48,771 nucleotides of DNA from Nanobdellota archaeon (GCA_022564635.1 JADFLA010000005.1:1-48771), one strand, 5' to 3'. Positions 4,117-33,556 are shown, counted from the first letter of the stretch. Numbers and translations: made by a program. Notes: a model not told the origin generated them from the sequence alone.

Positions 4117-5832
4117 ATGAAAAACCACGAAGTAGCAGAGCTACTAAGGAATATAGCACAACTTCTAGAAATAAAAAACGAGCTAATTTTTAGGATAAGA
4201 GCATATGAAAAAGCAGCTTTAGTTATTGAAAACCTAGATGAAGATATAGAAGATGTGTGGAAACAAGGCAAACTAGAGGATATACCTGGAGTTGGAGAAG
4301 CACTAACAAAAAAAATAAGTGAATTTCTTGAAACAGGTAAATTAGAGTATTATGAAAAACTAAAGAAACAAGTCCCTGTTAATATGGAAGAATTAGGTAA
4401 AGTTGCTGGTTTAGGACCAAAAACTATAATGAAGCTATACAAGGAATTAAATGTAAAAAATCTAAAAGATCTGGAAAAAGCAGCTAAACAAAAGAAAATT
4501 GAAAATATTGAAGGCCTTGGAGAAACAGTTGAAGAAAACATATTAAAAAGCATCGAATTTGCAAAATCAACTGGTAACAGATTTCTATTAGGAACTGCCT
4601 TGGATATTGCAGAAGACATTAAAGATATATTAAAAAAATTTAAAGAAGTCAATAATGTTGAGATTGGAGGATCTTTAAGGAGAAGAAAAGAAACTATAGG
4701 AGATATTGATATTCTTATTACATCAAAAAATCCAGCAAAAGTGATAGATTTCTTTACAAAAATGGATGATGTAGAAGATGTCTTGGCAAAAGGTCCTACA
4801 AAAAGCTCTGTAAGGCTTAAAGAAGGCTTGCAAGCGGACTTAAGGGTATTGCCAGAAAAAATTTATGGTGCAGCTTTACTATATTTTACAGGCAGCAAAC
4901 AACATAACATTGTTCTAAGAAAAATTGCAATAAAGAAAAGAATGAAATTATCCGAATATGGAGTTTTTAATAAAAAAACAAACAAATTATTGGCTGGAAA
5001 AACTGAGGAAGAATGTTATAAGAAATTAGGACTAAGATACATAGAACCTGAAATAAGAGAGGATGGAGGAGAAATAGAGCTAGCAATGAAAAATAAATTA
5101 CCAAAACTTATTGGCTATAATGATTTGAAAGGAGATTTACAGATGCATACAAAATATTCCGATGGCAACAATACCATAATGGAAATGGCATTAGCATCAA
5201 AAAAACTTGGTCATGAATATATTTGCATAACAGATCATGTTGGAGAAACTTTTAAGATTACAAATTCATTAAATGAAAAAAGAATAAAGAAGCAAAGAAT
5301 AGAAATCAATATGGTAAATAAAAAGTTGAAAGGTATTGTTATTTTACAGGGTGGTGAAGTGAATATTAGGGATAATGGGAGTCTTGATTTAAAAGATAAT
5401 GTACTTAAAGAACTTGACATTGTTTTAGCTGCCATACACTCTGGCTTCAAAAATCCAAAAGAAAAAATCAATAAAAGAATAATTAGAGCAATGGAAAATC
5501 CTAATGTTGATATTATAGCTCATCCTTCTGGCAGATTAATTAATCAAAGACCAGCAATAGAATGGGATTTTGACGAAATTCTGGAAAAAGCAAGGCAGAC
5601 AAAAACTGTTTTAGAAGTAAATGCTTCCCAGGAAAGGCTAGATTTGAAAGATGTTCATGTAAGTGCAGCAGTAAAAGCTAAAGTTAAACTTTCAATAGGA
5701 ACTGATTCCCATGAAACTGATCAGCTAAGAAATTATAAATTAGGAATAGCAACCGCAAGAAGAGGCTGGGCAGCAAAAAAAGATGTAATTAATACTTATT
5801 CTGTTAAGGATATGTTAAAGTTGTTGAAATAA
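4117..5832 (+). CDS. polX: Family X DNA polymerase with C-terminal PHP domain
   Basis: 571 aa; HhH regions, GGSLRRRKETIGDIDILI nucleotidyltransferase motif, PHP motifs DLQMHTKYSDG, ITDHV, HPSGR, GTDSHE. Confidence 0.95.
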   Translation: MKNHEVAELLRNIAQLLEIKNELIFRIRAYEKAALVIENLDEDIEDVWKQGKLEDIPGVGEALTKKISEFLETGKLEYYEKLKKQVPVNMEELGKVAGLGPKTIMKLYKELNVKNLKDLEKAAKQKKIENIEGLGETVEENILKSIEFAKSTGNRFLLGTALDIAEDIKDILKKFKEVNNVEIGGSLRRRKETIGDIDILITSKNPAKVIDFFTKMDDVEDVLAKGPTKSSVRLKEGLQADLRVLPEKIYGAALLYFTGSKQHNIVLRKIAIKKRMKLSEYGVFNKKTNKLLAGKTEEECYKKLGLRYIEPEIREDGGEIELAMKNKLPKLIGYNDLKGDLQMHTKYSDGNNTIMEMALASKKLGHEYICITDHVGETFKITNSLNEKRIKKQRIEINMVNKKLKGIVILQGGEVNIRDNGSLDLKDNVLKELDIVLAAIHSGFKNPKEKINKRIIRAMENPNVDIIAHPSGRLINQRPAIEWDFDEILEKARQTKTVLEVNASQERLDLKDVHVSAAVKAKVKLSIGTDSHETDQLRNYKLGIATARRGWAAKKDVINTYSVKDMLKLLK

Positions 5833-5833
5833 A

Positions 5834-6466
5834 TCAAGAAACAGCCTTTAGCACCAACTCAAACTCTTCTTCAGGTGTTCCAGAACCATCAACATCAACA
5901 ATTAAATCTTTTTCTTTATAATAATTTATCAAAGGCTCTGTTTTCTCTCTGTAAACTTTTAATCTTTCTTTAATAGCCTCTGGTTTGTCATCTTCTCTTT
6001 GATTTAAAATTCCAGAGCATTTATCACAAAAACCTTCCCTATTGGGTTTTATAAAATCAAGATGATAAATAAAGCCGCATTTGCTGCATACTCTTCTCCT
6101 GCTTATTCTTTCTACAATAACTTCATCACTTGCTTGTATATTTACAACTTTGTCAATTTTAATATCTTTAATTTCTTCTGCCTGATTTATAGTTCTTGGA
6201 AATCCATCCAAAATAAATCCATTTTTACAGTCATCATTTTGTAGTTTTTCCTTAATCATCTCTATAACAACATCATCCGGAACCAATAATCCTCTATCCA
6301 TCAAAGATTTAGCTTTTACTCCTAACTCTGTTTTCTGAGCAACATTTTCCCTCAACATATCACCCGTAGCTATGTGTGGAATTCCTAGCTTTTTGCTTAG
6401 CTTTCCTGCAGCAGTTCCTTTTCCAATGCCTGGTGGTCCTAATAACACAATATTCATTCTAACCAA
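5834..6466 (-). CDS. adk: Adenylate kinase (zinc-lid type)
   Basis: P-loop GPPGIGKGT; ATGDMLRE; Cys4 lid CSKCG...CDKC; DGFPRT. Start may be the internal MNIVLLGPPG. Confidence 0.95.
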   Translation of the reverse strand: MVRMNIVLLGPPGIGKGTAAGKLSKKLGIPHIATGDMLRENVAQKTELGVKAKSLMDRGLLVPDDVVIEMIKEKLQNDDCKNGFILDGFPRTINQAEEIKDIKIDKVVNIQASDEVIVERISRRRVCSKCGFIYHLDFIKPNREGFCDKCSGILNQREDDKPEAIKERLKVYREKTEPLINYYKEKDLIVDVDGSGTPEEEFELVLKAVS

Positions 6467-12845: not shown

Positions 12846-13103
12846 GTGATTATTATGCCATTATTAGAGATAAAAAGTGCAAAAATTACGAAAAAAGGAC
12901 AGATTGCTATTCCCAAGCATATAAGGGATATTGAAGGATTCAAGGAAGGTTCTAAGATAGCTATATTGGCATTTGATAACAGGATAGAATTAAGGCCTAT
13001 GAATCAAGTAGATGAAAGATTGTTTACTGCTTTGGCAACTGAAAAAATTTTAGCTAAGGATTGGAACAGCAAAGAGGATGAAAAGGCATGGAAGAACTTA
13101 TGA
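12846..13103 (+). CDS. AbrB/MazE-like antitoxin
   Basis: AKITKKGQIAIPKHIRDIEGFKEGSKI swapped-hairpin motif; overlaps the downstream toxin gene. Confidence 0.85.
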   Translation: MIIMPLLEIKSAKITKKGQIAIPKHIRDIEGFKEGSKIAILAFDNRIELRPMNQVDERLFTALATEKILAKDWNSKEDEKAWKNL

Positions 13104-13420
13104 AAGGAGATGTTGTAGTTCTGCCATTCCCGTTTTCTGATTTAAGCGCTTCAAAGAAAAGGCCAGCCTTGGTAGCTGCAACATTGGAAGGGCATGATGT
13201 TATCTTATGCCAGATCACAAGCGTAGCAAGAAATGACAATTATTCAATAAGCCTTAAGAATCAAGATTTTAAGCATGGTAAATTAAATGTGGATAGTGTA
13301 ATAAGACCAAATAGGTTATTTACAGCTGATAAATCAATTGTATTGTATAAAGCTGGTTATCTCAAGATAGGTAAGATAAAAGAAGTTGAAAAGATGATTG
13401 TTAAGATATTTACTCATTAG
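13088..13420 (+). CDS. MazF/PemK-family toxin
   Basis: MKGDVVVLPFPFSDLSASKKRPALVAA...ILCQITS. Confidence 0.9.
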   Translation: MEELMKGDVVVLPFPFSDLSASKKRPALVAATLEGHDVILCQITSVARNDNYSISLKNQDFKHGKLNVDSVIRPNRLFTADKSIVLYKAGYLKIGKIKEVEKMIVKIFTH

Positions 13421-14020: not shown

Positions 14021-14130
14021 CTTCTGGATAAGGATAAGAAATAGTTTTTAAAAACTTTACTTTGATTCTTTTGCCCATTCACAAGATTTATAAATTAATT
14101 CTCTTTATTAAAACAGTATTTTAAAAGAAA

Positions 14131-15567
14131 ATGTCTCTACTCTCAAAATCAAAATATCTAATTGGGTTGCAATGCCCTAAACATCTATGGTTATCAGTTC
14201 ATGACCCTTCTAGAATACCAGAACCTGATGAATCTACTCAGTATAGGTTTTCACAAGGGCATTTAGTTGGAGAATTGGCTAAAAAAGTTTTTTTGAAAGG
14301 TATTGATGTTCCTGTTGAAGATTTTTCAAAAAATCTTAAATTATCCAAAGAATTGCTTTCTAAAAGAAAACCTTTATTTGAGGCTGCTTTTATGTTTGAA
14401 AATCTATATTCTAGGGCAGATATACTAAATCCTGTAAATAAGGATGAATGGGACATCATAGAGGTTAAATCAGGAACTAGTGTCAAAGAACCTAATGTTG
14501 ATGATGTTGCATTCCAAAATTATTGTTATACTAAATCCGGACTTAAGATAAGAAAATGTTTTCTTATGCATATCAATAATGAATTTGTTAAAAATGGTAA
14601 GATAGATCCTAATAAGCTATTTACGCAAACCGAGATAAGTGATGAAGTTAAAGAAACAGATGTTAAAGTTTCTGAGATGCTTAAGATCATGAATTTGAAA
14701 GAGTGTCCTTCATGTTTGATAGGTGTTCATAGCATAAAACCTTATGAATGTCCATTAAAGGATGAATGCTGGTCTAGTCTTCCAGATGATAATATATTTG
14801 ACCTTTATTCTGGAGGCAAAAAATGCTTTGATCTGTATGAAAAAGGCATAGAATCAATAGCAGATATTCCAGATGATTATAAATTAAGCTCTAATCAATC
14901 AATCCAGAAGGAATGTTCTTCTGGAAAAGTTCATATTGAAAAGTCTAAGATAAAAGAATTTCTTTCTACTTTAAAGTATCCATTATATTATCTTGATTTT
15001 GAAACTTATGCAACTACAATTCCCCTGTATGATGGTCTAAAACCTTACCAAGCTATCCCTTTCCAGTTTTCTTTGCATGTTGATTCAAAAAAATCTGTTA
15101 AACATCATTCTTTTCTTTCTACTTTAGGTGATTCTCGTTTAGAATTTTTGAAAGCCTTGAAGGCAGTTATCGGTCCAACTGGCAGTATAGTTGCATACAA
15201 TCAAAGTTTTGAAAAAAATATACTTAAATCACTTTCTGTTATGTATCCTTCGTATAAGGACTGGGTAGATTCTATTTTGGATAGGTTTGTTGACTTACTT
15301 ATCCCTTTTCGGAAGTTTTACTATTACAATCCAAAACAAAAAGGAAGCGCATCAATAAAATATGTTTTACCTGCAATAACCGGAAAAGATTATTCCGGAT
15401 TAGATATAGCTGATGGAGAAACCGCAAGCTTAGAATACATGAACATGATCCATGGACCTAAACAAACCAAAGAGGAAATAATGAAAATCCGGGAAGATCT
15501 AGAGAATTATTGTAAATTAGATACTGAAGGGATGGTTTGGATTGTTGAAAGGCTTGGGAAGGTTTAA
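14131..15567 (+). CDS. DUF2779 protein: Cas4-like PD-(D/E)XK nuclease plus DEDD exonuclease-like domain
   Basis: N-terminal IGLQCPKHLW; SRADIL...WDIIEVKSG; CPSC...ECPLKDEC cysteines; C-terminal YYLDFETYA, VAYNQSFEKNIL, YCKLDTEGM. Confidence 0.85.
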   Translation: MSLLSKSKYLIGLQCPKHLWLSVHDPSRIPEPDESTQYRFSQGHLVGELAKKVFLKGIDVPVEDFSKNLKLSKELLSKRKPLFEAAFMFENLYSRADILNPVNKDEWDIIEVKSGTSVKEPNVDDVAFQNYCYTKSGLKIRKCFLMHINNEFVKNGKIDPNKLFTQTEISDEVKETDVKVSEMLKIMNLKECPSCLIGVHSIKPYECPLKDECWSSLPDDNIFDLYSGGKKCFDLYEKGIESIADIPDDYKLSSNQSIQKECSSGKVHIEKSKIKEFLSTLKYPLYYLDFETYATTIPLYDGLKPYQAIPFQFSLHVDSKKSVKHHSFLSTLGDSRLEFLKALKAVIGPTGSIVAYNQSFEKNILKSLSVMYPSYKDWVDSILDRFVDLLIPFRKFYYYNPKQKGSASIKYVLPAITGKDYSGLDIADGETASLEYMNMIHGPKQTKEEIMKIREDLENYCKLDTEGMVWIVERLGKV

Positions 15568-15628
15568 ATATTGACCTGAGGTAACATATGATTTAGTGGT
15601 CTTAAAATGTCAAACTGGAAAAAACAAA

Positions 15629-17425
15629 ATGAAAAAACAAAAATATTCAGTTAATCAAAATCCTGCAGAAACGATATTGGCTTGGGTAAATTCTGGAGAG
15701 ATTGCTATTCCTGAAATTCAAAGACCTTTCGTTTGGGACTCAACAAAAGTTAGAAATTTAATAGATTCACTTTACCAGGGATATCCCATTGGATACCTGA
15801 TTATCTGGCGCAATCCAGATGTAAGATTAAAAGATGGTAAAACTTCTGAAGGGAAAAAAATACTAATCGATGGTCAACAAAGAATAGCTGCATTAATGAC
15901 ATCAATACTTGGAGAGGAAATATTAAATAAAGATTATAAAAAAATTATTATTAAAATTGCATTTAACCCATTAACAGAAAAATTCGAAGTATTAAATCCT
16001 GCAATTTCTAAAGATTCTAGTTGGATACCCAATATTGGGCCCATCATTACAGGACAAACAAGATTAACTGCTGCAATAAATGAGTATTGTAATAAAAATC
16101 CTAAAGCTGATAGAAATCAGATAGAAGATTCATTAGAAAGCTTAAAAGAAGTTATTAAAAAGCAGATTGGTCTTATTGAATTAGAACATAATCTAGACAT
16201 TGAAACCATAACTGAAATTTTTATTAGAATAAATTCTGAAGGAGTACCTCTAAGTCAAGCTGATTTTGCCATGTCGAAAATAGCAGTAAATGAAACTTAT
16301 GAAGGTTCTATATTAAGAAAATGTATTGATTATTCATGTCATTTAATGATATCTCCTGAATTTTATACAACTATTAGGGATGTTGACAAAGATTTTGCAG
16401 AATCCGAATATTTCCAAAAAATTTCTTGGTTAAAAAATGAAAGTGATGATCTCTATGACCCCAGTTACAAGGATCTATTAAGGGTTGCCTTTACTTCTGA
16501 ATTTAATAGGGGTAAACTTGCAGATTTAGTTAGTTTATTATCTGGAAGAAATTTTGAACTAAGAACTTATGAGGAAGAAATTGTAAAGGATTCTTTCGCA
16601 TTACTCAAAAAAGGTATTTTAAATTTTATCAATGAGACAAATTTTAAAAGATTTTTGATGATAATTAAATCTGCTGGATTTATTTCACCCAATCTTATTA
16701 GGTCTAAAAACGCATTAAATTTTGCTTACATATTATATCTTAAACTCAGATCTCAAGATTATAATCCATCAGATATAGAAAGATATGTGCGTAAATGGTT
16801 TGTATTGAGCATTTTGACTGGTAGGTATTCCGGTTCACCAGAATCTAGATTTGATTTTGACATACGTAACATTGCTAAGAAAAAATTTGAAGAGTTCCTG
16901 AATGATGTTGAAAGTGCCGAATTATCCGAAGCTTTTTGGACTGCAGGCCTAGTTCAAAGTTTGAATACTTCTGTTTCTAGCAGCCCTTATTTTAATGTAT
17001 ATTTAGCTACTCAAGTGAAATCAAATGATAAGGGATTTTTATCTAAAGATATTACTGTAAAGGATTTGATAACACATAGGGGAGACATACACCATATCTT
17101 CCCAAAAGGATATCTTAAAGATAACAAATTGAAAAGAGGAGAATACAATCAAATCGCTAATTATGTATATATGCAATCAGAAATTAACATAAAAATTGGG
17201 AATAAATCACCTAAAAGTTATTTTACAGAATTACTTGAACAATGTGATGGCGGAGAAGTTAAGTATGGTGGAATAAACGAGAAATTAGGACTTCAACAAA
17301 ATCTGAAAATGAATTGTGTGCCTGAATCAATTTTCAATATGGAAATAAGTGATTATGAGAATTTTTTGAAAGAAAGAAGAAAATTAATATCAATAAAAAT
17401 TAAAGAATATTATTTTTCACTATAG
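15629..17425 (+). CDS. DUF262 domain protein with HNH-like C-terminus (GmrSD-like)
   Basis: [57 protein letters not shown]. Start [10 protein letters not shown] at 15629 preferred over 15596. Confidence 0.88.
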
Positions 17426-17475
17426 ACAAACCAGAAAATTATAACTGACACTCCAAAAAATAAGGTGAAGTAATA

Positions 17476-19830
17476 ATGAGTCTTAACGAAGCAGACACAA
17501 GAGCGAAACTAATTGATCCAACTATCCACAAGATTGGTTGGACTGAAAATCTCATTAGAAGAGAAAAAACTGCTGGAGCAATTGAAGTCATTAATGGTAA
17601 TCCTAAACGTAAAACTGGAAGAACTGATTATTTATTGTGCTTGCCTGCTAGAGAAGATCAAAACCCACTGCCCATTGCTATAGTAGAAGCAAAGAAAGAG
17701 AATGATCCATGTACACTTGGCCTGGACCAGGCAAAAGATTATGCAAAATATCAACACGTTCCTTTCGTATTCTCAACTAACGGTCATTTGTATGCCGTGT
17801 ATGATTTTTTTAGCGGAAAAATAAAATCTGACATCCCATTAAATGAGTTCCCAGCGCCAAATAAATTAAGAGAATTATATGAAAAGAAAAAAGGCTTTAG
17901 TTTAGACTCAGAAGATGCTAAGGCCTTATTAGTACCTTATGCTGGAGGACAATCTGAAAGAAGATATTATCAAGATGCTGCAATTCGAGCAGCATTAGAA
18001 AAGATTGCTTCAGGCAATAAAGGGAGTAATAGAGTATTGTTATCTTTAGCTACTGGAGCTGGAAAAACCAGGATAGCTGTTCAATTATTACATAAAATTG
18101 CTTTATCTGGTCAACTTAAAAAGGCATTATTTGTATGTGACAGAAATGAGCTTAAAAGGCAAGGATATGGAAGTTTATTTGGTACATTCGGAGACAATGT
18201 TGCAGTCGTGGGGAAGAAAAATCCACAGAAAAATGCTAGAATTATTGTAGCTACATACCAATCATTAGGGATAGATGATGAAGGAGATCAATCATTTTTT
18301 CTAGATAATTATCCCAAAGATTATTTCAGTCACATCATAATTGATGAGTGTCATAGAAGTGCATGGAATAAGTGGAGTATTGTTTTAACTAACAATACTA
18401 AAGCTGTTCAAATTGGATTAACTGCAACTCCAAGGAAAATAGTGGGAGAGAAATCTCCTGAAAGAGACATAGATGAGAAGATAAGTAAGAATAATATCAA
18501 GTATTTTGGCGAGCCAGTATATGAATACAGTTATATCCAAGGTCAAGAAGACGGTTACTTGGCAGCTTTGGAGTTAATTAAAAGAAAAGTAACAATTGAT
18601 GATTTGTGGCTGACAAGAGAAGAATTGCTTAAAAAAGGAATTAAAAACAAAAAAACTGGAAAATTGTTAACGGATAATGAAATCAAGGAAATATATACTA
18701 AAAAGAATTTTGATAAGGAATTGGTATTGCCTGACAGAAGAAAAGCTATGATTAATGATCTTATTAAGAACTTGGAGGATACTGGAGGACTTAAGCAAAA
18801 AACAATAATATTTTGCGTAAATGATCTTCATGCACATGATGTTGCTAATGATATTCATAATATTGCGGTGGATAAAGGATATAGAGATACTAAAAAACTA
18901 GTTTTCAAATTTACACAAAAGGGTGTGGATGCAGGAACACTTGGTGAAAGTCAAGAAACATTAATGGGTAATATGAGGGGCAGTAAAAGCTCCCATTTTA
19001 TTGCAACAACCGTTGAATTGTTAACAACCGGTGTTGATTTACCTTGTGTTGCTAACATTGTCTTCTTTAGTTACGTTTCCTCGCCTATTCAATTTTATCA
19101 AATGTTTGGAAGAGGAACGAGAATTGACACTGTTTTTGATAAGTTCATGTTTAGGATTTATGATTATACTAATGCAAGTAGATTATTTGGAAAAGAATTT
19201 ATTTCAATAGCAAGAGATAAGCCGTCTAAACCATCAAAGAAAAAGAAAGAATTAGTTATTGGAGAAGCATCAGGATTTTATGTTAAAGTTAAAGATGAAG
19301 GCATATTTATCATAATGAAAGATAAAGAAACTGGAAAAGAGAGACCAGTACCAGTTGAAGAATATCAAGCAGATCTCGCTGTTAGATTGGTAAAAGAAGC
19401 ACACAATATTGATTTACTACGTGAGATGTGGATAAACCCAGATTCTAGAAAACATTTAGTTAATGCCTTACCTGGAGGAGAACAAGGTGCAAATTTACTT
19501 AGAAATATTTTAAAATTAGAAAATTGTGATTTATTTGATTTATTCGCTAATGTGGGATTTGGAATTGACCCAAAAACTAGAAAAGATAGAGTTATTGGAT
19601 TTGAGTATAAGAATTCTGATTGGTTAAATTCATTACCTACTGATGCTGCATCCGTTATTAAGGAAATTGCAAAACAATTCAGTAAAGAAGGCATTGAAGA
19701 ATTGGAGAATGATGACATTTGGAATGTTCCGAGTGTAAAAAGAGCTGGCGGTTATAAATCGGTAGAAAAGTTTACAGATGACATTAAATCATTAATAGTT
19801 GATGTTAAGAAGAGGATTTTAGCAGCATGA
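17476..19830 (+). CDS. hsdR: Type I restriction endonuclease subunit R
   Basis: RTDYLL...IAIVEAKKEN nuclease motif, LATGAGKTRIA Walker A, IIDECHRS DEAH-like box, QMFGRGTRID motif VI. Confidence 0.93.
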   Translation: MSLNEADTRAKLIDPTIHKIGWTENLIRREKTAGAIEVINGNPKRKTGRTDYLLCLPAREDQNPLPIAIVEAKKENDPCTLGLDQAKDYAKYQHVPFVFSTNGHLYAVYDFFSGKIKSDIPLNEFPAPNKLRELYEKKKGFSLDSEDAKALLVPYAGGQSERRYYQDAAIRAALEKIASGNKGSNRVLLSLATGAGKTRIAVQLLHKIALSGQLKKALFVCDRNELKRQGYGSLFGTFGDNVAVVGKKNPQKNARIIVATYQSLGIDDEGDQSFFLDNYPKDYFSHIIIDECHRSAWNKWSIVLTNNTKAVQIGLTATPRKIVGEKSPERDIDEKISKNNIKYFGEPVYEYSYIQGQEDGYLAALELIKRKVTIDDLWLTREELLKKGIKNKKTGKLLTDNEIKEIYTKKNFDKELVLPDRRKAMINDLIKNLEDTGGLKQKTIIFCVNDLHAHDVANDIHNIAVDKGYRDTKKLVFKFTQKGVDAGTLGESQETLMGNMRGSKSSHFIATTVELLTTGVDLPCVANIVFFSYVSSPIQFYQMFGRGTRIDTVFDKFMFRIYDYTNASRLFGKEFISIARDKPSKPSKKKKELVIGEASGFYVKVKDEGIFIIMKDKETGKERPVPVEEYQADLAVRLVKEAHNIDLLREMWINPDSRKHLVNALPGGEQGANLLRNILKLENCDLFDLFANVGFGIDPKTRKDRVIGFEYKNSDWLNSLPTDAASVIKEIAKQFSKEGIEELENDDIWNVPSVKRAGGYKSVEKFTDDIKSLIVDVKKRILAA

Positions 19831-21050
19831 AACAAGAACTAGTTCTTAAAAAGAATTTTCCAGAAGGGTGGAAATGGAGTATTCTTGGGGAAATTGCTAC
19901 TTACTATAATGGTAGGGGCTTCAAGTCTGGAGAATGGAGCAAAGAGGGATTACCAATAATTCGTATTCAAAATTTAACCAAGACTACAGATCACTATAAC
20001 TATTATAATGGTCCATACGATAAAAATTATCATGTTAAAAATGGAGATCTTTTGCTAGCTTGGTCTGCAACTCTAGATATATTTGTTTGGGATTCTTCAG
20101 ATGCCTTATTAAATCAGCATATTTTCAAGATTGAGGTTGATAATTCCAAAATTGAAAAGAAATATTTTTTTTACTATATAAAACAAATAATTGAAAAAAT
20201 TAAACAACAAATTCATGGAGGGGGAATGAAGCATATTACTAAGAGTAAATTATTATCCATCCCCATAGTCCTACCCCAAATTAAAGATCAACAAATAATA
20301 GTCTCAAAACTTGATAAACAAATGAAAGAAATTGAAATGATGAAGAAAGCATCTAACACTCTAAAGGAATATTTGGAAGAGTCACTTTACAGCTTTGTTG
20401 AAAGTATATTTGAGAATAAATTTGAAGAAATGAAATTAGATGAACTTATTGATTTCGTAAAAAGTGGTATATCGCGAAAATTTGAAACAACAAATGTAGG
20501 GGTTCCAGTTATGAGATCAACTAATATAAAGATTAAAACTTCATCCATAAACTTAGATGATATCAGATATTGGTATTGGGACGATACTAAAGGGGACGAT
20601 ACCAAGAAATATCTGCTTGATCAGGGAGATATATTACTCAATTTTATCAATAGCCCTGCACAGATTGGAAAGGTTTGTATATATAGATCTGAGTTTAAGG
20701 ATTGTATTTACACTACCAATTCATTTAGGATAAAGTTTGATCAAAGGAAATTACTTCATAAATTTTTTAGAATATTCTCTTTGAGTAAATATTACAGAAA
20801 GCAAATTGAAGCCACCACAAAAAGAGCAGTAAACCAGGCCAGTTTTACTCAGAAGGACTTAAGAAATATTAAGATTCCGCTTCCCTCCGTAGAGTTACAA
20901 GAAAATTATATTTTCAAATTCGAATTAATTGAAACGGAACTTCAAAACATTATAAAATCGTTTCAAATCTCCAGTGAAGCAATATTACTACTCCAATCAT
21001 CAATCTTAAACGAAGTATTCGGAAAATACGAAATTCCTGAGGAGGCATAA
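19827..21050 (+). CDS. hsdS: Type I R-M specificity subunit S
   Basis: PEGWKWSILGEIATYYNGRGFKSGEW, ISPIVLP-type TRD ends, two TRD halves; ATGA overlap with hsdR. Confidence 0.9.
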   Translation: MKQELVLKKNFPEGWKWSILGEIATYYNGRGFKSGEWSKEGLPIIRIQNLTKTTDHYNYYNGPYDKNYHVKNGDLLLAWSATLDIFVWDSSDALLNQHIFKIEVDNSKIEKKYFFYYIKQIIEKIKQQIHGGGMKHITKSKLLSIPIVLPQIKDQQIIVSKLDKQMKEIEMMKKASNTLKEYLEESLYSFVESIFENKFEEMKLDELIDFVKSGISRKFETTNVGVPVMRSTNIKIKTSSINLDDIRYWYWDDTKGDDTKKYLLDQGDILLNFINSPAQIGKVCIYRSEFKDCIYTTNSFRIKFDQRKLLHKFFRIFSLSKYYRKQIEATTKRAVNQASFTQKDLRNIKIPLPSVELQENYIFKFELIETELQNIIKSFQISSEAILLLQSSILNEVFGKYEIPEEA

Positions 21051-22624
21051 TGAAAAACGGATTAAACAATCAATCAAGCATGAATTCTTACATTAAATCA
21101 ATTTGTGACATTATGCGTAGAGATAGAACCAAAGGAGCAATGCAGTATATTCCAGAACTTACATGGATGATGTTTCTTAGAATATTAGATGAAAAAGAGC
21201 TTAATGAAGAAAAAAGAAGAAAATCAGTTGGAAAATCATTCACATCTTCATTAAAATTACCCTATAGGTGGAGAGACTGGGGAAGTTCTGAAGGAAAGAA
21301 AAGAATAGAACTAACTGAAAAAGGAAAATTAGATGATTTTCTAAATTTTGTTAATAGATACATCAGCCCTGAAGAAATAAAAAAGGGAAAGGAAATGGGT
21401 CTTATTCAATATATGAAATCATTTGAAAAAAATCCCAATGCCTCATTAAGACAAAAAATTATTTCTCAAATATTTAGGAATCTAGATCGTACACATTTAG
21501 CAATTGAAAGAAATCTATTAGATGTGTTAGACATGGTAGACAAATTAAGCACCGAGTCTATAGATGACACACATCAGTTCCCACTATCACAATTATATGA
21601 AGGATTGCTTTTGAAAATGGGCGAAAAGAATAATGATGGTGGACAATTCTTTACACCAAGAGAAGTAATAAGGGCTATGATAAGGGCTGTAAAGCCAAAA
21701 ATAAAGGTTAAAGGAGAAGATGTTAAATTTTATGATCCCTGTTTTGGAACAGGTGGTTTTTTAGCAGAAACTCATGTTTACTTAACAAATCCAGAGTTAT
21801 TCGGTAAAGATCTAAACGCTACTGAAATAAAATATTTAAAGCAAAATGCTTTCTGGGGTTTGGATAATAGTGATGATGCTTTTCCAATAGCATTAGCTAA
21901 TTTAATTCTTCACGATATTGATTATCCTCATTTAGGATTAAAAAACACTCTTAGTGGAAAAGAACAATACATGGAGTTATTTAAAGATGCTCCTGGACAG
22001 TTTTATTATATCTTTACTAATCCCCCTTTCGGAGGAAAAGAAGGAGAAGACTCTAGGGTAAATTTTACCTTTAGGACAGGAAATACTCAAATTTTATTCT
22101 TGCAACATATTATAGATTCCTTAAAAGATGGTGGAACTTGTGCAATGGTTATTGATGAGGGAGTTTTATTTAGAACTAATGAAATAGCTTTTGTTCAAAC
22201 TAAAACTAAACTTCTGGAAGAATGTAATTTGTGGTGTATTTTAAGCTTACCTCCAAACATTTTTGTGAATGCTGGAGCAGGAGGTAAGACAAACTTGTTA
22301 TTTTTTACTAAAGGAAAAAGAACAGAGAAAGTATGGTACTATGATATGTCACATATTAAAGTACTTAAGAGATCTCCATTTACATTAGACAAATTTAATG
22401 ATTTTTTTACAAGATTATTTTCTAATAATGAAAAAGACAAGATTAGCGATAAAAGTTGGTATGTTGATATTAAATCAATAGAGAAAAAGAATTATGATAT
22501 TAAGGCGGTTAATCCTAACATTAAAGAAAAGATAATTCCTAAGCCAGAAGATTTGATTAAGATTATTGAGGACTCACAAAAAAAGATTAGTGAAGGTTTA
22601 GAAAAATTAAAAGAAATAAAATGA
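21050..22624 (+). CDS. hsdM: Type I R-M methyltransferase subunit M
   Basis: GQFFTPREVIRAM, DPCFGTGGFL, TNPPFGGKEG; TAATG overlap with hsdS. Confidence 0.95.
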   Translation: MKNGLNNQSSMNSYIKSICDIMRRDRTKGAMQYIPELTWMMFLRILDEKELNEEKRRKSVGKSFTSSLKLPYRWRDWGSSEGKKRIELTEKGKLDDFLNFVNRYISPEEIKKGKEMGLIQYMKSFEKNPNASLRQKIISQIFRNLDRTHLAIERNLLDVLDMVDKLSTESIDDTHQFPLSQLYEGLLLKMGEKNNDGGQFFTPREVIRAMIRAVKPKIKVKGEDVKFYDPCFGTGGFLAETHVYLTNPELFGKDLNATEIKYLKQNAFWGLDNSDDAFPIALANLILHDIDYPHLGLKNTLSGKEQYMELFKDAPGQFYYIFTNPPFGGKEGEDSRVNFTFRTGNTQILFLQHIIDSLKDGGTCAMVIDEGVLFRTNEIAFVQTKTKLLEECNLWCILSLPPNIFVNAGAGGKTNLLFFTKGKRTEKVWYYDMSHIKVLKRSPFTLDKFNDFFTRLFSNNEKDKISDKSWYVDIKSIEKKNYDIKAVNPNIKEKIIPKPEDLIKIIEDSQKKISEGLEKLKEIK

Positions 22625-23451
22625 AAATCTCTTTGTGTAAAAAAGTGGATTACTCAATGTTTCATTGGGGCGTTACAGTTCCCAAAGAATTAGAAAAACC
22701 ATTTTATCAAGGTAAAAAGTTAAAACCCGGAACCCAAAGAAATATAACAATTTTTTGGGATAATAAGCAATATGATGCTAGATTAAGATTAGTAAAGAGG
22801 AAAGAATATTCGCATGTTTATCAAATTAGATGGGACAATCATACTGAAATATTAAATAAAGTTAGAAATACGTTCATACATAGTTATGTAATTCTTGAAA
22901 GTAAACATGAAAGTCTTAAACAAAAATCTAAAAAGCAGTTTAGGTCTTTTTTTGAAACCGGACAAAGAGAAGTATTGAAAATCACCCCATTAAATAGGAA
23001 TGTTTTCAAATTTGATACGTATATTAAGATTGACTTGGGATTTAATCAATTATTTGAAAGGTTGGCTAATGAAAATGTTTTTGGATGGATGTTCGGAAAA
23101 GAAAAAGAAGAATTTATCCAAACTTCTACTCCTTGGTATTCAATAAAAGAATTAAAAAATCATATTGAGACTAAAAACGTAATATATTACCTTGCTGATA
23201 CAAAAAATAAAGAACTTTATATTGGAAGTGCGAATGTACTCGGAAATAGAGTCAAGCGAAATCGTTCTGAAATTCCAAATTGGGATAAATTTAGATTTGA
23301 TGTTATTAGAAATAAATATTCAAAATTTTTAAGAAGAATAGAAAATCATATTATTAGAACTGTAGCGAGTCTAATAAAAAACATACCTTCCTATTCTTCC
23401 TTAAATATAAGTTATTATAAATTAAAAAATAAAAAAAGTTTAAAATATTAA
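22621..23451 (+). CDS. GIY-YIG domain protein, possible nuclease
   Basis: C-terminal NVIYYLADTKNKELYIGSANVLGNRVK...RRIENHIIRTVASLI gives GIY, YIG, Arg and Glu positions; ATGA overlap with hsdM. Confidence 0.75.
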   Translation: MKISLCKKVDYSMFHWGVTVPKELEKPFYQGKKLKPGTQRNITIFWDNKQYDARLRLVKRKEYSHVYQIRWDNHTEILNKVRNTFIHSYVILESKHESLKQKSKKQFRSFFETGQREVLKITPLNRNVFKFDTYIKIDLGFNQLFERLANENVFGWMFGKEKEEFIQTSTPWYSIKELKNHIETKNVIYYLADTKNKELYIGSANVLGNRVKRNRSEIPNWDKFRFDVIRNKYSKFLRRIENHIIRTVASLIKNIPSYSSLNISYYKLKNKKSLKY

Positions 23452-23454
23452 TTT

Positions 23455-24108
23455 TTATTTAAAACTACAGTAACTATTGTGAGAAACAATAATATTGTCT
23501 AGGATATTTATATTCAATAAATTTCCAGCTTTTTCTAAAGACCTTACAACTTCTCTATCCTCATCACTAGCCTCACAATCACCACTAGGATGATTATGTA
23601 CTAATATGATTGCATTGGCACTTGCTTTGATTGCTTCTTTGAAGACTTCTCTTGGATGGACTAGACTTGAATTTAGGGTTCCAACTGATATAATTTCATC
23701 TTTGATTATTTTATTCTTGCTATCTAGAAATACAGCTATAAAGTACTCTTTTTTCTTGTCTTTTAGTTTTTCCATGTAATGATGAGCAATATCAGAAGCA
23801 TTAGTAATAACTTTCTCGCAGATCTTACCGGAACAAACACGTTTACTTAATTCAAATGCAGCAATTAATTTAGCAGCTTTTGCTAAACCAATACCTTTTA
23901 TCTTCATTAGTTCAGTTAAAGACAATGAATTTATCTCATCCAATCCATAAATATTTATTAAATTATTACTTAAATCAATAACATTTTCTCCTAAAGAACC
24001 AGTTTCTAATAGTAAAGCTAAAACTTCAGAATCATTTAAACTATCAATTCCTTTACTTTTTAATCTTTCCCTTGGTCTTTGCTCTATAGCAATCTCTTTT
24101 AATCTCAA
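23455..24108 (-). CDS. radC: RadC-family protein (HhH + JAB domain)
   Basis: RERL..KGIDSLNDSEVLALLL, HhH IKGIG, JAB VHNHPSGDCEASDED. Confidence 0.92.
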   Translation of the reverse strand: MRLKEIAIEQRPRERLKSKGIDSLNDSEVLALLLETGSLGENVIDLSNNLINIYGLDEINSLSLTELMKIKGIGLAKAAKLIAAFELSKRVCSGKICEKVITNASDIAHHYMEKLKDKKKEYFIAVFLDSKNKIIKDEIISVGTLNSSLVHPREVFKEAIKASANAIILVHNHPSGDCEASDEDREVVRSLEKAGNLLNINILDNIIVSHNSYCSFK

Positions 24109-24314: not shown

Positions 24315-25823
24315 ATGAAAGTTTTACTGGATACTAACATAATAATACACAGAGAAGCTAGTGCCGTTTTTAATGAAGATATTGGCACTTTGTTTGGTTG
24401 GCTTGACAAACTTCACTATGAAAAATGCATTCACCAATTAACGATAGATGAAATTGAAAAACATGAAGATAAAAAGGTAGTTGAGACGTTTAAAGTAAAA
24501 TTAAATAACTATGTCTTATTAAAGACCGAAGCCCCATTAGCACCTTCTGTACAGAAAGTAAGTAAAGCTCAAGACAAAACACCAAACGACTTTAATGATA
24601 CTCGATTAATTAATGAGTTAGCCAACAACAGAGTAGACTATCTAATATCAGATGACAAAGGAATTCACGAAAAAGCACATATACTTGATATGGATTCTAG
24701 AGTATTTACAATAGATTCTTTCCTTGAAAAAGTAACTACAGAAAATCCAGATTTAGTAAATTATAAAACCCTTTCTGTGAAAATATCATACTTTGGAGAT
24801 GTTAACCTAAAAGATATTTTTTTTGATTCTTTTCGAGAAGACTATAATGGATTCGATGACTGGTTTAATAAAAAATCTAATGATATTGCATACGTCTGTT
24901 TAGATTCTGATAATACCCTAGCATTTCTTTATTTAAAGAGGGAGAATGAAGATGAAAATTATATGGATATCACTCCAATTTTCCCAAAGAAAAAAAGACT
25001 TAAAATAGGTACTTTCAAAGTAAATCTTAATGGATTCAAACTTGGGGAAAGATTTCTGAAAATCGTTTTTGACAACGCTTTAAAGCAAAATATTGATGAA
25101 ATCTATGTGACTTTGTTTAATAAGCGACCAGAGCATCAGAGATTAATCAATTTGTTTCTTGAATATGGCTTTAAATATTGGGGTAAAAAAAATACCCCTA
25201 GTGGAGAAGAAATAGTCTATGTAAGAAGCTTTGTAAAATCTGTTGATATATCTAATCCAAAATTTACCTTTCCCCATATTTCTTTGAAATCTGACGTGTT
25301 TATGGTATCAATTAGACCAGAGTACCATACTAATCTTTTTCCAGATTCAATATTAAGAACAGAATCCCCTCAAGAATTTGAAAAGAATGAAACATTCCGC
25401 AATGCTCTAAGTAAAGTTTTTGTTTCTAGATCGTGGGAAAGGAATTTAAAATCAGGAGATATTATTGTGTTCTACAGGACTGGGGGAATCTTTCAAGGAG
25501 TGGTTACTACCATAGGAATTGTTGAATCTGTAGTTACGAATATAAAAGATGAAAAAACTTTTATCAATCTATGCAAAAAAAGAAGTGTATTCTCTAATCA
25601 AGAATTATCAAAACAATGGAATTATAGTAACTCCAAACCTTTTGTAGTAAACTTTCTTTATGCTTATTCCTTTCCTCACAGAATAAATGGAAAGACACTT
25701 CTAGATTTAGGGATAATTAAAGATGTAGAAAGTTTTCCACAAGGCTTTAAACAAATTTCAAGAGATGATTTTGAAAAAATATTATCCAATACTAACACTG
25801 ATAATAATATAATTGTTAGATAA
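24315..25823 (+). CDS. PIN-GNAT-EVE/ASCH-like three-domain protein
   Basis: PIN: MKVLLDTNIIIHRE, DTRLINELANNRVDYLISDDKG. GNAT: LKIGTFKVNLNGFKLGERFLKIVFDNAL...IYVTLF..R..HQRLINLFLEYGFKYWGKK. PUA-like: VFMVSIRPEYHTNLFPDS...LKSGDIIVFYRTGG...GVVTTIGIVES. Confidence 0.75.
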   Translation: MKVLLDTNIIIHREASAVFNEDIGTLFGWLDKLHYEKCIHQLTIDEIEKHEDKKVVETFKVKLNNYVLLKTEAPLAPSVQKVSKAQDKTPNDFNDTRLINELANNRVDYLISDDKGIHEKAHILDMDSRVFTIDSFLEKVTTENPDLVNYKTLSVKISYFGDVNLKDIFFDSFREDYNGFDDWFNKKSNDIAYVCLDSDNTLAFLYLKRENEDENYMDITPIFPKKKRLKIGTFKVNLNGFKLGERFLKIVFDNALKQNIDEIYVTLFNKRPEHQRLINLFLEYGFKYWGKKNTPSGEEIVYVRSFVKSVDISNPKFTFPHISLKSDVFMVSIRPEYHTNLFPDSILRTESPQEFEKNETFRNALSKVFVSRSWERNLKSGDIIVFYRTGGIFQGVVTTIGIVESVVTNIKDEKTFINLCKKRSVFSNQELSKQWNYSNSKPFVVNFLYAYSFPHRINGKTLLDLGIIKDVESFPQGFKQISRDDFEKILSNTNTDNNIIVR

Positions 25824-25863
25824 AAATATTTAAATCGAAATATTAATAAATAATAAATTTAAG

Positions 25864-26325
25864 TTGTGTGCTATGGCTAAATTATTCTCTATAAAAGAAA
25901 AATATTCTGATAGAATTTATTCAAAGGAAAAATTAGTTGAGTTTAGAAGGCAGAATGTGAATATTGATAAAGGGGAATTTTGTTTAATTTATACTAGTTC
26001 TCCTGTAAAAAAGATAACTGGTTACTTCATTGTAAAAGAGAAGATTAGAACATCCATAAGGAAATTATGGGAACTGACAAAGGAATTTGCAGGAATTTCA
26101 TATAAAGAATTTAAAGAATATTTTAAGGAATGCAAATTAGGTACTGCTATTGTATTTAAAAAAATTCACAAATTCACAAAAACTTTGGGACTAGATGAAT
26201 TGCGCAAAAAAGTAGCTTTTAGACCACCACAATCATATTGTAATTTGAATAGATTGTTAATAGAACTATATTGCAGTTTCATTCCTCAGAAACAGTTGAG
26301 TATGTTTACTCATTTCAAGGAATAA
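25864..26325 (+). CDS. ASCH-like domain protein
   Basis: LFSIKEKYSDRIYSKEKLVEFRRQN...ITGYFIVKEKI, resembling the ASCH N-terminal pattern. Confidence 0.65.
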   Translation: MCAMAKLFSIKEKYSDRIYSKEKLVEFRRQNVNIDKGEFCLIYTSSPVKKITGYFIVKEKIRTSIRKLWELTKEFAGISYKEFKEYFKECKLGTAIVFKKIHKFTKTLGLDELRKKVAFRPPQSYCNLNRLLIELYCSFIPQKQLSMFTHFKE

Positions 26326-26365: not shown

Positions 26366-26719
26366 CTAATTTTTTCTTTTGTCCATATAATAACCAGCGA
26401 TATCAGAAGCATTAGTAATAACTTTCTCGCAGATCTTACCAGAACAAACACGTTTACTTAATTCAAATGCAGCGATTAATTTAGAAGCTTTAGCTATTCC
26501 AATACCTTTTATCTTCATCAGTTCAGTTAAAGACAATGAATTTATCTCATCCATTCCAAAAATATTTATTAAATTATTACTTAAATCAATAACATTCTCT
26601 CCTAAAGAACCAGTTTCTAATACTAAAGCTAAAACTTCAGAATCATTTAAGCTATCAATTCCTTTACTCTTTAACCTTTCACGTGGTCTTTGGTCTAATG
26701 CAATCTCTTTTAATCTCAT
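26366..26719 (-). pseudogene. Truncated radC copy (HhH part only, no JAB domain)
   Basis: 117 aa nearly identical to residues 1-110 of the 23455-24108 product, ending GYYMDKRKN*. Confidence 0.85.
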
Positions 26720-26727
26720 TTTAAACT

Positions 26728-27138
26728 TTACAAGAATTCTTTTGGGCTTAATATCTCAATGCCTTTATATTTTCTTAATTTTAATAAATGACTGTCTCCA
26801 GATACTATATTTGCATTAACCGTAAGCGCGCAATTGATGAATTTGTTATCTTCTGGGTCTTCAATTATTACTTTTTCATCAAATTTTGGGATTATAATTA
26901 TAGATTTTTCAATAAAACCTTTTATTAAAAAGTCTTTATCCTTTTCTGTTACTGCTTTTTTGATATGATTCTTCTCAAATACTCCTCTAACCTCTTCAAT
27001 GATATCATAAGTAGTGTAATTTATTATTTTACCGGCAGCCACCAGCCTGATTAATTGAGCAGGTGCTCCATTTTCATTGATTGAAGCAGATATTAATATA
27101 TTTGTATCAAGAACTACGCTTCTGTCTTCTATATTCAT
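26728..27138 (-). CDS. PIN-domain toxin (VapC-like)
   Basis: VVLDTNILISAS, EDPEDNKFINCAL, NIVSGDSHLL. Confidence 0.88.
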   Translation of the reverse strand: MNIEDRSVVLDTNILISASINENGAPAQLIRLVAAGKIINYTTYDIIEEVRGVFEKNHIKKAVTEKDKDFLIKGFIEKSIIIIPKFDEKVIIEDPEDNKFINCALTVNANIVSGDSHLLKLRKYKGIEILSPKEFL

Positions 27139-27370
27139 GTATTTCAGCCTCTATTTGAGCTGAAGACATCTTTTTAGTCCTTTTCCTGATCCGATTGAAT
27201 TCTTCAATCCAGGCTTTTGAATCAAATTTCTTCATCACAATGGTGTCCTTATCAAGAGCATCCACTACAAAAACTGTATCGGTATCAGCATGAATCTGTT
27301 CACGCACCTCTTTAGGTATTATGATCTGACCTCTTTCTGACATCTTAGCTGTTTCCATATTAATCACCAA
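27107..27370 (-). CDS. AbrB-type antitoxin
   Basis: AKMSERGQIIIPKEVREQI; overlaps the PIN gene. Confidence 0.87.
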   Translation of the reverse strand: MVINMETAKMSERGQIIIPKEVREQIHADTDTVFVVDALDKDTIVMKKFDSKAWIEEFNRIRKRTKKMSSAQIEAEIHEYRRQKRSS

Positions 27371-32456: not shown

Positions 32457-33473
32457 ATGCGCAAAAGAAATTCTAGGGCTAGTAATAGAAGAACAAGACG
32501 TAATAGAGTGGGAAGTAATCCCAGTCTTGTGCAAAAAATAAATAGTATGTCAAACACTAAAAAAATCATTGGTGCAGCAACAATTGTAACTGTTTTAGCT
32601 GCTGGTGCTGCTGGTGTATTAGCGGGTATGTATTCTAATAATAATGAAATAGATTCTTCTTACTCTTCAGTCATCGAAGACCCTAGAGAAATTGGTGATG
32701 GAAACGTAACTTTTCAAGGTGTATTAGATAAAAGAGTTTCAGCTGAAGATTATTTAAATCATCTAAGTTCTACTATGCCAGAAATTCTTGAAGCTAAAAA
32801 AGAAGGATTTCTTCAAGGCATATATTATGATCCAAGCGACAAGCAATTGGAAAAAATTGCTTTACAGCATTTTGCAAATATAGATATGCCTATTGATGGA
32901 GACTTTCAAGCTTTTTTGGAATCTATAATTGACTATTCAAATACTATGAGAACACGAAAAACAAATCGAATCTCTACTGTTAGGGAAGGCTTAAGTGGTA
33001 AAGGAAATTATTCCTTTATGTTAGTATGGCCAACTGTATTTAAAAAAGGGAATTTTGTCAAAGAAGAAGATTTTCGTCTTGCCATGAGACATGAGTTATT
33101 TCACACAAGAGATGCCTTTTATGGAATTAGTTATGATGGAGTGTTAATTGATGATACTAAACTATCTGATAATTTTTTAGTTAATCTAGGAGAACTTCGG
33201 GCTACTGCCGTAGAAATTGAATATATTCTTAATCACCCTAATGAAATCAGTCCTGAATATACCTCTAATCGCTTAAATATTTTTGTTAAATGGCGAGATA
33301 ATATGTGTCCAATAAATGAATACGAGACTGAAATAAAGAAAAAACAACTTGCAGAACTTCCAATATCGGTTACTGTCAAAGGAAATTCTTTGAGAGGATA
33401 CTTTAAAGATTCAGAAAAATTTGTTGAAGCAAAATACACTAAACATAAAATTCCAAATTATTGTCTAAAATAA
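32457..33473 (+). CDS. Membrane-anchored HExxH protein
   Basis: N-terminal basic stretch then TM (IIGAATIVTVLAAGAAGVLAGMY); MRHELFHTRDAFYG and downstream GELRATAVEIEY. Confidence 0.65.
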   Translation: MRKRNSRASNRRTRRNRVGSNPSLVQKINSMSNTKKIIGAATIVTVLAAGAAGVLAGMYSNNNEIDSSYSSVIEDPREIGDGNVTFQGVLDKRVSAEDYLNHLSSTMPEILEAKKEGFLQGIYYDPSDKQLEKIALQHFANIDMPIDGDFQAFLESIIDYSNTMRTRKTNRISTVREGLSGKGNYSFMLVWPTVFKKGNFVKEEDFRLAMRHELFHTRDAFYGISYDGVLIDDTKLSDNFLVNLGELRATAVEIEYILNHPNEISPEYTSNRLNIFVKWRDNMCPINEYETEIKKKQLAELPISVTVKGNSLRGYFKDSEKFVEAKYTKHKIPNYCLK

Positions 33474-33482
33474 ATATAACAA

Positions 33483-33556
33483 TGAGCCCGGAGGGATTTG
33501 AACCCCCATTTCCTGGTCCGAGGCCAAGTGTGCGATCCAGGTTACACCACGGGCCC
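33483..33556 (-). tRNA. tRNA-Arg(TCG), with C at position 33
   Basis: GGGCCCG-TG-GTGTAACCTGGATCGCAC-A-CTTGG-CCTCGGA-CCAGG-AAATG-GGGGGTTCAAATCCCTC-type T arm-CGGGCTC-A; all stems pair. Confidence 0.85.

Follow-up and report, generated by a model that had tools for sequence, protein, structure and literature searches.

Enzymes of the GmrSD family are established residents of type I restriction-modification (R-M) loci. Type I genes are reported to be their commonest defence neighbours, RloF being one such case (Machnicka 2015, PMC4619093), and TgvAB of Vibrio cholerae VPI-2 provides an experimental precedent for a modification-dependent enzyme in a type I locus, which there combines restriction of unmodified and of modified DNA (PMC11411939). 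The related BrxU (HEC-05), a single chain with DUF262 and HNH parts, accompanies BREX. For DUF2779, 3'-5' exonuclease activity has been predicted, with membership of the RNase H-like superfamily and an accompanying DUF83 PD-(D/E)XK domain (PMC3985635). Here we describe a locus that brings such proteins together, at positions 14,131 to 23,451 of a 48,771-nucleotide stretch (hereafter the window) from a Nanobdellota archaeon (GCA_022564635.1 JADFLA010000005.1:1-48771). It encodes a DUF2779 protein, a DUF262/HNH protein, the HsdR (R), HsdS (S) and HsdM (M) subunits of a type I system and a putative GIY-YIG nuclease. We think it probable, without holding to it strongly, that this is a mosaic restriction operon, in which nuclease cassettes have been added around a horizontally acquired R-S-M core.

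The original prediction placed six co-directional genes here, and the listing of same-strand open reading frames (ORFs), together with domain searches, bears this out (Table 1). It also read the last four genes as joined by ATGA, TAATG and ATGA overlaps, which is what the junctions contain: GCATGAAA between hsdR and hsdS, ATAATGA between hsdS and hsdM, and AAATGAAA between hsdM and the GIY-YIG gene. Gaps of 61 bp and 50 bp follow the first and second genes, respectively, and neither pair is coupled. The gene list needs amending in two details. The second ORF spans 15596-17425 but the ATG at 15629 is probably its start, since a relative in locus L170 (see below) aligns from there and the window has lost the upstream in-frame start; it is this choice that makes the first gap about 61 bp rather than 28. 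The GIY-YIG gene, moreover, is recognised by visible motifs and has no significant family match. The six genes would be expressed as a single unit.

Gene content and motifs indicate a complete type I system at the core. HsdR has the expected nuclease and superfamily 2 (SF2) motor, with ResIII, HSDR_N and EcoEI_R_C domain matches and DYLL...EAK, DECH and QMFGR motifs present. It matches the NCBIfam EcoAI/FtnUII R model (NF046051) at 9.1e-141 and 470.7 bits, against a curated cut-off of 550, and by that rule is a relative of the family, not a member. HsdS matches Methylase_S in two stretches (3.2e-31) and PADLOC Specificity_I (3.3e-67), consistent with two target-recognition domains, while HsdM (N6_Mtase 9e-51, HsdM_N 2.2e-8) has the S-adenosylmethionine and NPPY/F motifs, with DPCFGTG and NPPF. 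All motifs checked in the R, M and GmrSD-type proteins are intact. The closest core found, on Carboxydocella plasmid pCCELLA01 (CP028515.1), shares the R-S-M order and shows 50% (R) and 53% (M) identity, but is without accessory nucleases; a Meiothermus system, with 46% (R) and 50% (M) identity, has other genes between its R and S. The R-S-M order thus appears normal for this subfamily. Full-motor HsdR matches elsewhere in the phylum, sampled as 371 genomes in a first-look search that may miss copies, reach at most about 39% over the aligned parts, and a scan of viral contigs gave no HsdR match. Because the nearest relatives found are on bacterial plasmids and the HsdRs of the phylum are more distant, the core was probably acquired horizontally from bacteria.

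The second gene is predicted to encode a BrxU/GmrSD-type (type IV-like) enzyme. The protein matches GmrSD_N (PF03235) at 1.4e-31 and 110.6 bits (cut-off 33.2), retains the N-terminal QR, DGQQR and FxxxN motifs and has HEC-05 as its best PADLOC match (1.2e-30). Its C-terminal part matches GmrSD_C/HNH (PF07510) weakly, at 16.4 bits against a cut-off of 23, with HHIFP and GNK motifs visible. The single-chain architecture would be that of BrxU, from which the protein differs in accompanying a type I system instead of BREX and in its sub-threshold GmrSD_C match. The RloF/GmrSD homologues likewise have a DUF262 gene beside hsdR or hsdS, but without coupling to DUF2779 or GIY-YIG genes as far as the source describes them (PMC4619093). 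In TgvAB, too, GmrSD-family genes lie in a type I R-M operon (PMC11411939); there, two genes sit within the cluster, whereas the window has one DUF262-HNH gene 5' of hsdR together with DUF2779 and GIY-YIG genes.

Comparison with L170, a locus from a different family of the same order (genome G014), suggests that the DUF262 gene is a cassette that moves between type I operons. Positions 15616-17460 of the window are 88% identical in DNA to L170, the match being limited to the DUF262 gene and about 35 bp, with nothing further shared. The L170 operon (M-DUF3644-S-DUF262-R) is unrelated to that of the window, and its DUF262 gene stands upstream of a different hsdR. The shared 35 bp are, in L170, the spacer and first hsdR codons (ATGGCAACTGACACTTCAGAA...); in the window they are non-coding and another hsdR comes next. 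In-register matches number 27 of 35, the top score among some 97,000 window positions (the runner-up has 25). The L170 hsdR start seems genuine, since bacterial HsdR homologues align from its residue 1. Because only the DUF262 gene and these 35 bp are shared, and an apparent remnant of an hsdR start is kept in the gap, movement of the cassette is indicated, and the simplest reading is that it came from an L170-type operon, bringing a piece of that hsdR. Elsewhere, a DUF262 gene lies immediately 5' of hsdR (L173); in L172 and two plasmid loci it is enclosed by type I genes or follows them. L170 also holds a further accessory within its type I operon, the DUF3644 gene at 4935-6026, between hsdM and hsdS.

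The first gene matches Pfam DUF2779 at 2.1e-39, and its product has both catalytic motif sets. Ten residues (D97, E111, K113, Q129, D289, E291, E361, D388, Y460 and D464) do not vary among 77 archaeal homologues. The AF2 model (pLDDT 93.3) retrieves Cas4 (E = 2.7e-5), AdnA and EXO5 in Foldseek and, more weakly, DnaQ-type exonucleases; the DUF2779 profile had no significant hit among PDB sequences. The model and residues thus predict a dual nuclease, Cas4/EXO5-like and DnaQ-like. Cas4, EXO5, AdnA and the COG2251-type RecB+RNase H proteins (PMC3985635) share the fold and motifs of its N-terminal part. The DUF2779 protein has no helicase part, and linkage to restriction operons is undescribed for the family in those portions of the literature mentioning DUF2779 that we consulted.

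The original prediction had the locus combining modification-dependent with modification-sensitive restriction. This stands as regards the GmrSD/BrxU-type enzyme in a type I operon, for which TgvAB is a precedent (PMC11411939) and neighbourhood statistics exist (PMC4619093). It does not extend to the DUF2779 protein, which by residues, model and fold matches appears exonuclease-like rather than a modification sensor and would therefore add degradation, not modification dependence.

DUF2779 is present in 81 of the 371 genomes. An hsdS gene lies within 9 kb in 12 of 77 archaeal loci, the window included and two of them (L101, L102) near-identical, against about 0.6 expected from random placement, although that is a weak null, as defence genes cluster anyway. 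On the protein tree the 12 type I-linked copies do not cluster: 11 label changes are needed, at least 9 of them forced, which indicates repeated origins of the linkage (9-11 separate lineages) and rules out a single ancestral DUF2779-type I operon. Arrangements vary accordingly, from DUF2779-R-S-x-M (L122, repeating the window's order of these genes) and DUF2779-R (L134) to DUF2779-M-S-R (L104) and R-S-M-x-DUF2779 (L156). Further operonic neighbours are ResIII, C5 and N6/N4 methylases, Tsp45I and HinP1I endonucleases and GmrSD, while genes more than 6 kb away in these loci are mostly housekeeping. GmrSD directly adjoins DUF2779 operonically in the window, in L095, L099 and L128 and in the IMG/VR contigs L197, L200 and L202; the two genes overlap in L099, L197 and L202, and in L200 type I M, S and R also lie within 9.5 kb. 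Type I linkage of DUF2779 and DUF262 is not, then, a peculiarity of this contig, and the recurrent DUF2779-restriction association is apparently undescribed. The GmrSD gene of L099 (10513-12885) carries a fused C-terminal DUF5655 and has a 4 bp overlap with DUF2779.

Several observations weigh against a dedicated partnership. Type I-linked DUF2779 copies form no clade and 65 of the 77 genes are without hsdS within 9 kb, while bacterial plasmid copies stand beside Qat, WYL, HATPase/PLD and Ssp-type (SspD-containing) genes, so that restriction seems a frequent but not exclusive partner and DUF2779 may belong to defence islands in general. Many close plasmid relatives of the DUF262 gene stand alone. 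The Cas4-type four-cysteine Fe-S cluster, finally, is incomplete in the window copy: C15, C207 and C213 are present but Ser201 occupies a position with a putative Fe-S cysteine in 66 of 77 homologues, a loss for which the nearby C192 or C195 might substitute.

The last protein matches GIY-YIG (PF01541) at E = 0.034 and 14.9 bits, below the cut-off of 22.6, and a search of its own genome gave it no PF01541 match. The IYY, YIG, R, RIE and SLN elements, with the catalytic Tyr, Tyr, Arg, Glu and Asn, are nevertheless visible. A model from a three-sequence input is of low confidence (pLDDT 48), its order of secondary structure being consistent with GIY-YIG; in Foldseek it gives non-significant leads (E > 0.7) to the LlaJI.R1 N-terminal domain, the LEC2 B3 domain and the Grx N-terminal domain, the last of which we take to be GIY-YIG-like. 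The 371 genomes yielded two full-length relatives (46-47% identity), one in G031, which has no N6_Mtase match at all, and one in G225, with none nearby. Neither relative is near type I genes, and a conserved type I accessory role is not supported. Searches of phages, of IMG/VR and of 35 further genomes from the family yielded no relative. The gene is evidently rare, and its coupling to hsdM, found in no other locus, seems specific to the window as far as searched; in this respect the association suggested by the original prediction did not generalise.

A partial GIY-YIG relative (35% identity over 105 residues, the protein being truncated) is found on a Hymenobacter plasmid directly after sspBCD, in a cluster with DUF262. 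Such Ssp phosphorothioation loci with Pbe-like genes, in Hymenobacter (L230) and Planktothrix (L177), have a GIY relative, DUF2779 and DUF262 as neighbours, but their modification is on the DNA backbone whereas that of the window would be made by HsdM. The same helicase-HATPase-PLD module is seen in L230 (1375-11938, with sspBCD) and L177 (1189-10446, with sspD); in L177 DUF2779 is inserted between HATPase and PLD, and in L230 the GIY relative is 3' of sspD.

Conservation of the exact six-gene order, which the original prediction had proposed to check, is absent. Separate searches with DUF2779, DUF262, HsdR and GIY-YIG found the same set and order in none of the 371 genomes, nor was it seen in the viral and plasmid loci examined, where an IMG/VR contig (L200) holds genes of five of the six kinds, differently arranged. 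The order is unique to the window as far as searched and is rejected as a conserved system. What the locus presents is an ordinary core, a known kind of GmrSD addition and a locus-specific GIY-YIG gene, the DUF2779 association being the apparently undescribed part.

The operon appears to sit in an insertion of about 23.8 kb (window 7857-31667), because the conserved genes that flank this segment are adjacent in G388, of the same genus and the one comparison genome showing the site, with about 89 bp between them (L227 5984-6073). The host assembly is fragmented (1.43 Mb). The island also holds two toxin-antitoxin-like pairs flanking the operon, AbrB-like with PemK (12846-13420) and PIN (VapC-like) with AbrB-like (26728-27370), and the PADLOC candidate pair PDC-M11A/B (24315-26325). 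The latter is flanked by a full radC (23455-24108, minus strand) and a truncated copy (26366-26719, minus strand), within which lie direct repeats of 347 bp with 92% identity (23761-24107 and 26372-26718), as if the cassette had entered with a partial duplication or could exit by recombination. Beyond the island, a 338-residue protein without a Pfam match (32457-33473) adjoins tRNA-Arg (33483-33556); it has no match in five same-genus genomes.

Table 1. Features of the restriction locus, in window coordinates
Feature	Position	Strand	Basis
Candidate archaeal promoter, TATA-like element tttataaattaa, about 40 bp 5' of first ATG	14089..14100	+	Read from sequence
DUF2779 protein: N-terminal Cas4/EXO5/AdnA-like PD-(D/E)XK nuclease and C-terminal DnaQ-like (DEDD) 3'-5' exonuclease domain, predicted	14131..15567	+	Pfam, invariant residues, AF2, Foldseek
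DUF262/GmrSD_N and HNH (DUF1524-like) protein, BrxU/HEC-05-like, probable mobile cassette	15629..17425	+	Pfam, PADLOC, motifs, L170 DNA identity
Probable remnant, start of other hsdR (L170-type MATDTSEK...)	17426..17460	+	27/35 collinear matches
hsdR, PD-ExK nuclease and SF2 motor	17476..19830	+	NCBIfam EcoAI/FtnUII R, motifs
hsdS, two target-recognition domains	19827..21050	+	Methylase_S, PADLOC Specificity_I
hsdM	21050..22624	+	N6_Mtase, HsdM_N, motifs
Putative GIY-YIG nuclease, N-terminal domain of uncertain type (possibly B3/EcoRII-N-like)	22621..23451	+	Sub-cut-off PF01541, visible motifs

End degradation after DNA cleavage is, in many bacteria, the job of RecBCD or AddAB. In the mosaic operon, R-S-M would methylate adenines at the HsdS target and, through HsdR translocation, cut unmodified DNA. 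The DUF262-HNH enzyme, by homology with BrxU and TgvAB, would cut invader DNA whose base modifications let it escape type I restriction. The helicase-less DUF2779 nuclease would degrade the ends left by either, and the GIY-YIG protein, translationally coupled to HsdM, may act as an additional nuclease with specificity for sequence or modification.

The main rival to this scheme is simple crowding in a defence island, where an ordinary type I system happens to lie beside unrelated defence genes that act independently, with no common mechanism. We regard this as possible, though not probable. Each accessory does occur elsewhere without type I genes, and everything lies within the one island, toxin-antitoxin pairs and the PDC-M11A/B candidate system alongside. 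Yet the same-strand junctions are short or overlapping, GmrSD in type I operons is a reported pattern (PMC4619093, PMC11411939), and operonic pairing of DUF2779 with GmrSD or with restriction genes has come up repeatedly, in separate lineages. These recurring and, in L099, L197 and L202, overlapping gene pairs argue against crowding alone, with which the random-placement null is nonetheless compatible.

Two more specific alternatives centre on the coupling of the GIY-YIG gene to hsdM. The accessory nucleases might supervise the type I enzyme, firing when anti-restriction proteins inhibit HsdR or HsdM, much as PrrC is known to do in the EcoPrrI locus (PMC12707154), and translational coupling could supply the fixed stoichiometry required. 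This is very improbable, given that the GIY-YIG family exists without hsdM (no N6_Mtase match in G031, none nearby in G225) and that no sensor domain was recognised. Alternatively, the GIY-YIG protein could be a type II-like endonuclease protected by HsdM/HsdS methylation, so that DNA would be cut in a second way at type I sites or close to them. The weak B3-like and GIY-like structural leads would fit, as would the N6_N4 methylase gene some 2.3 kb from the relative in L006 and the partial relative beside sspBCD, but with model confidence so low and Foldseek E-values above 0.7, and with relatives lacking type I genes nearby, we consider this, too, quite improbable.

Under the mosaic reading, a type I operon of tiny-genome archaea serves as an anchor to which exchangeable nucleases are attached, and one cassette transfer has apparently left a molecular remnant behind. 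That DUF2779 and DUF262 both recur beside restriction systems points to a common set of accessory enzymes for cutting DNA. DUF2779, a predicted nuclease recurrently linked to restriction, is the best lead. It is possible, though not probable, that it is a general restriction-finishing nuclease of many DPANN archaea and some bacteria, a helicase-less counterpart of RecBCD/AddAB that is attached to restriction genes of types I-IV and destroys cut DNA, GmrSD-DUF2779 being a recurring two-gene module. A widespread dual-nuclease family without an assigned function would thereby gain a role open to experiment; and, if DUF2779 does clear restriction fragments, this would explain how cut invader DNA is finished off in hosts that perhaps lack RecBCD/AddAB-like enzymes.

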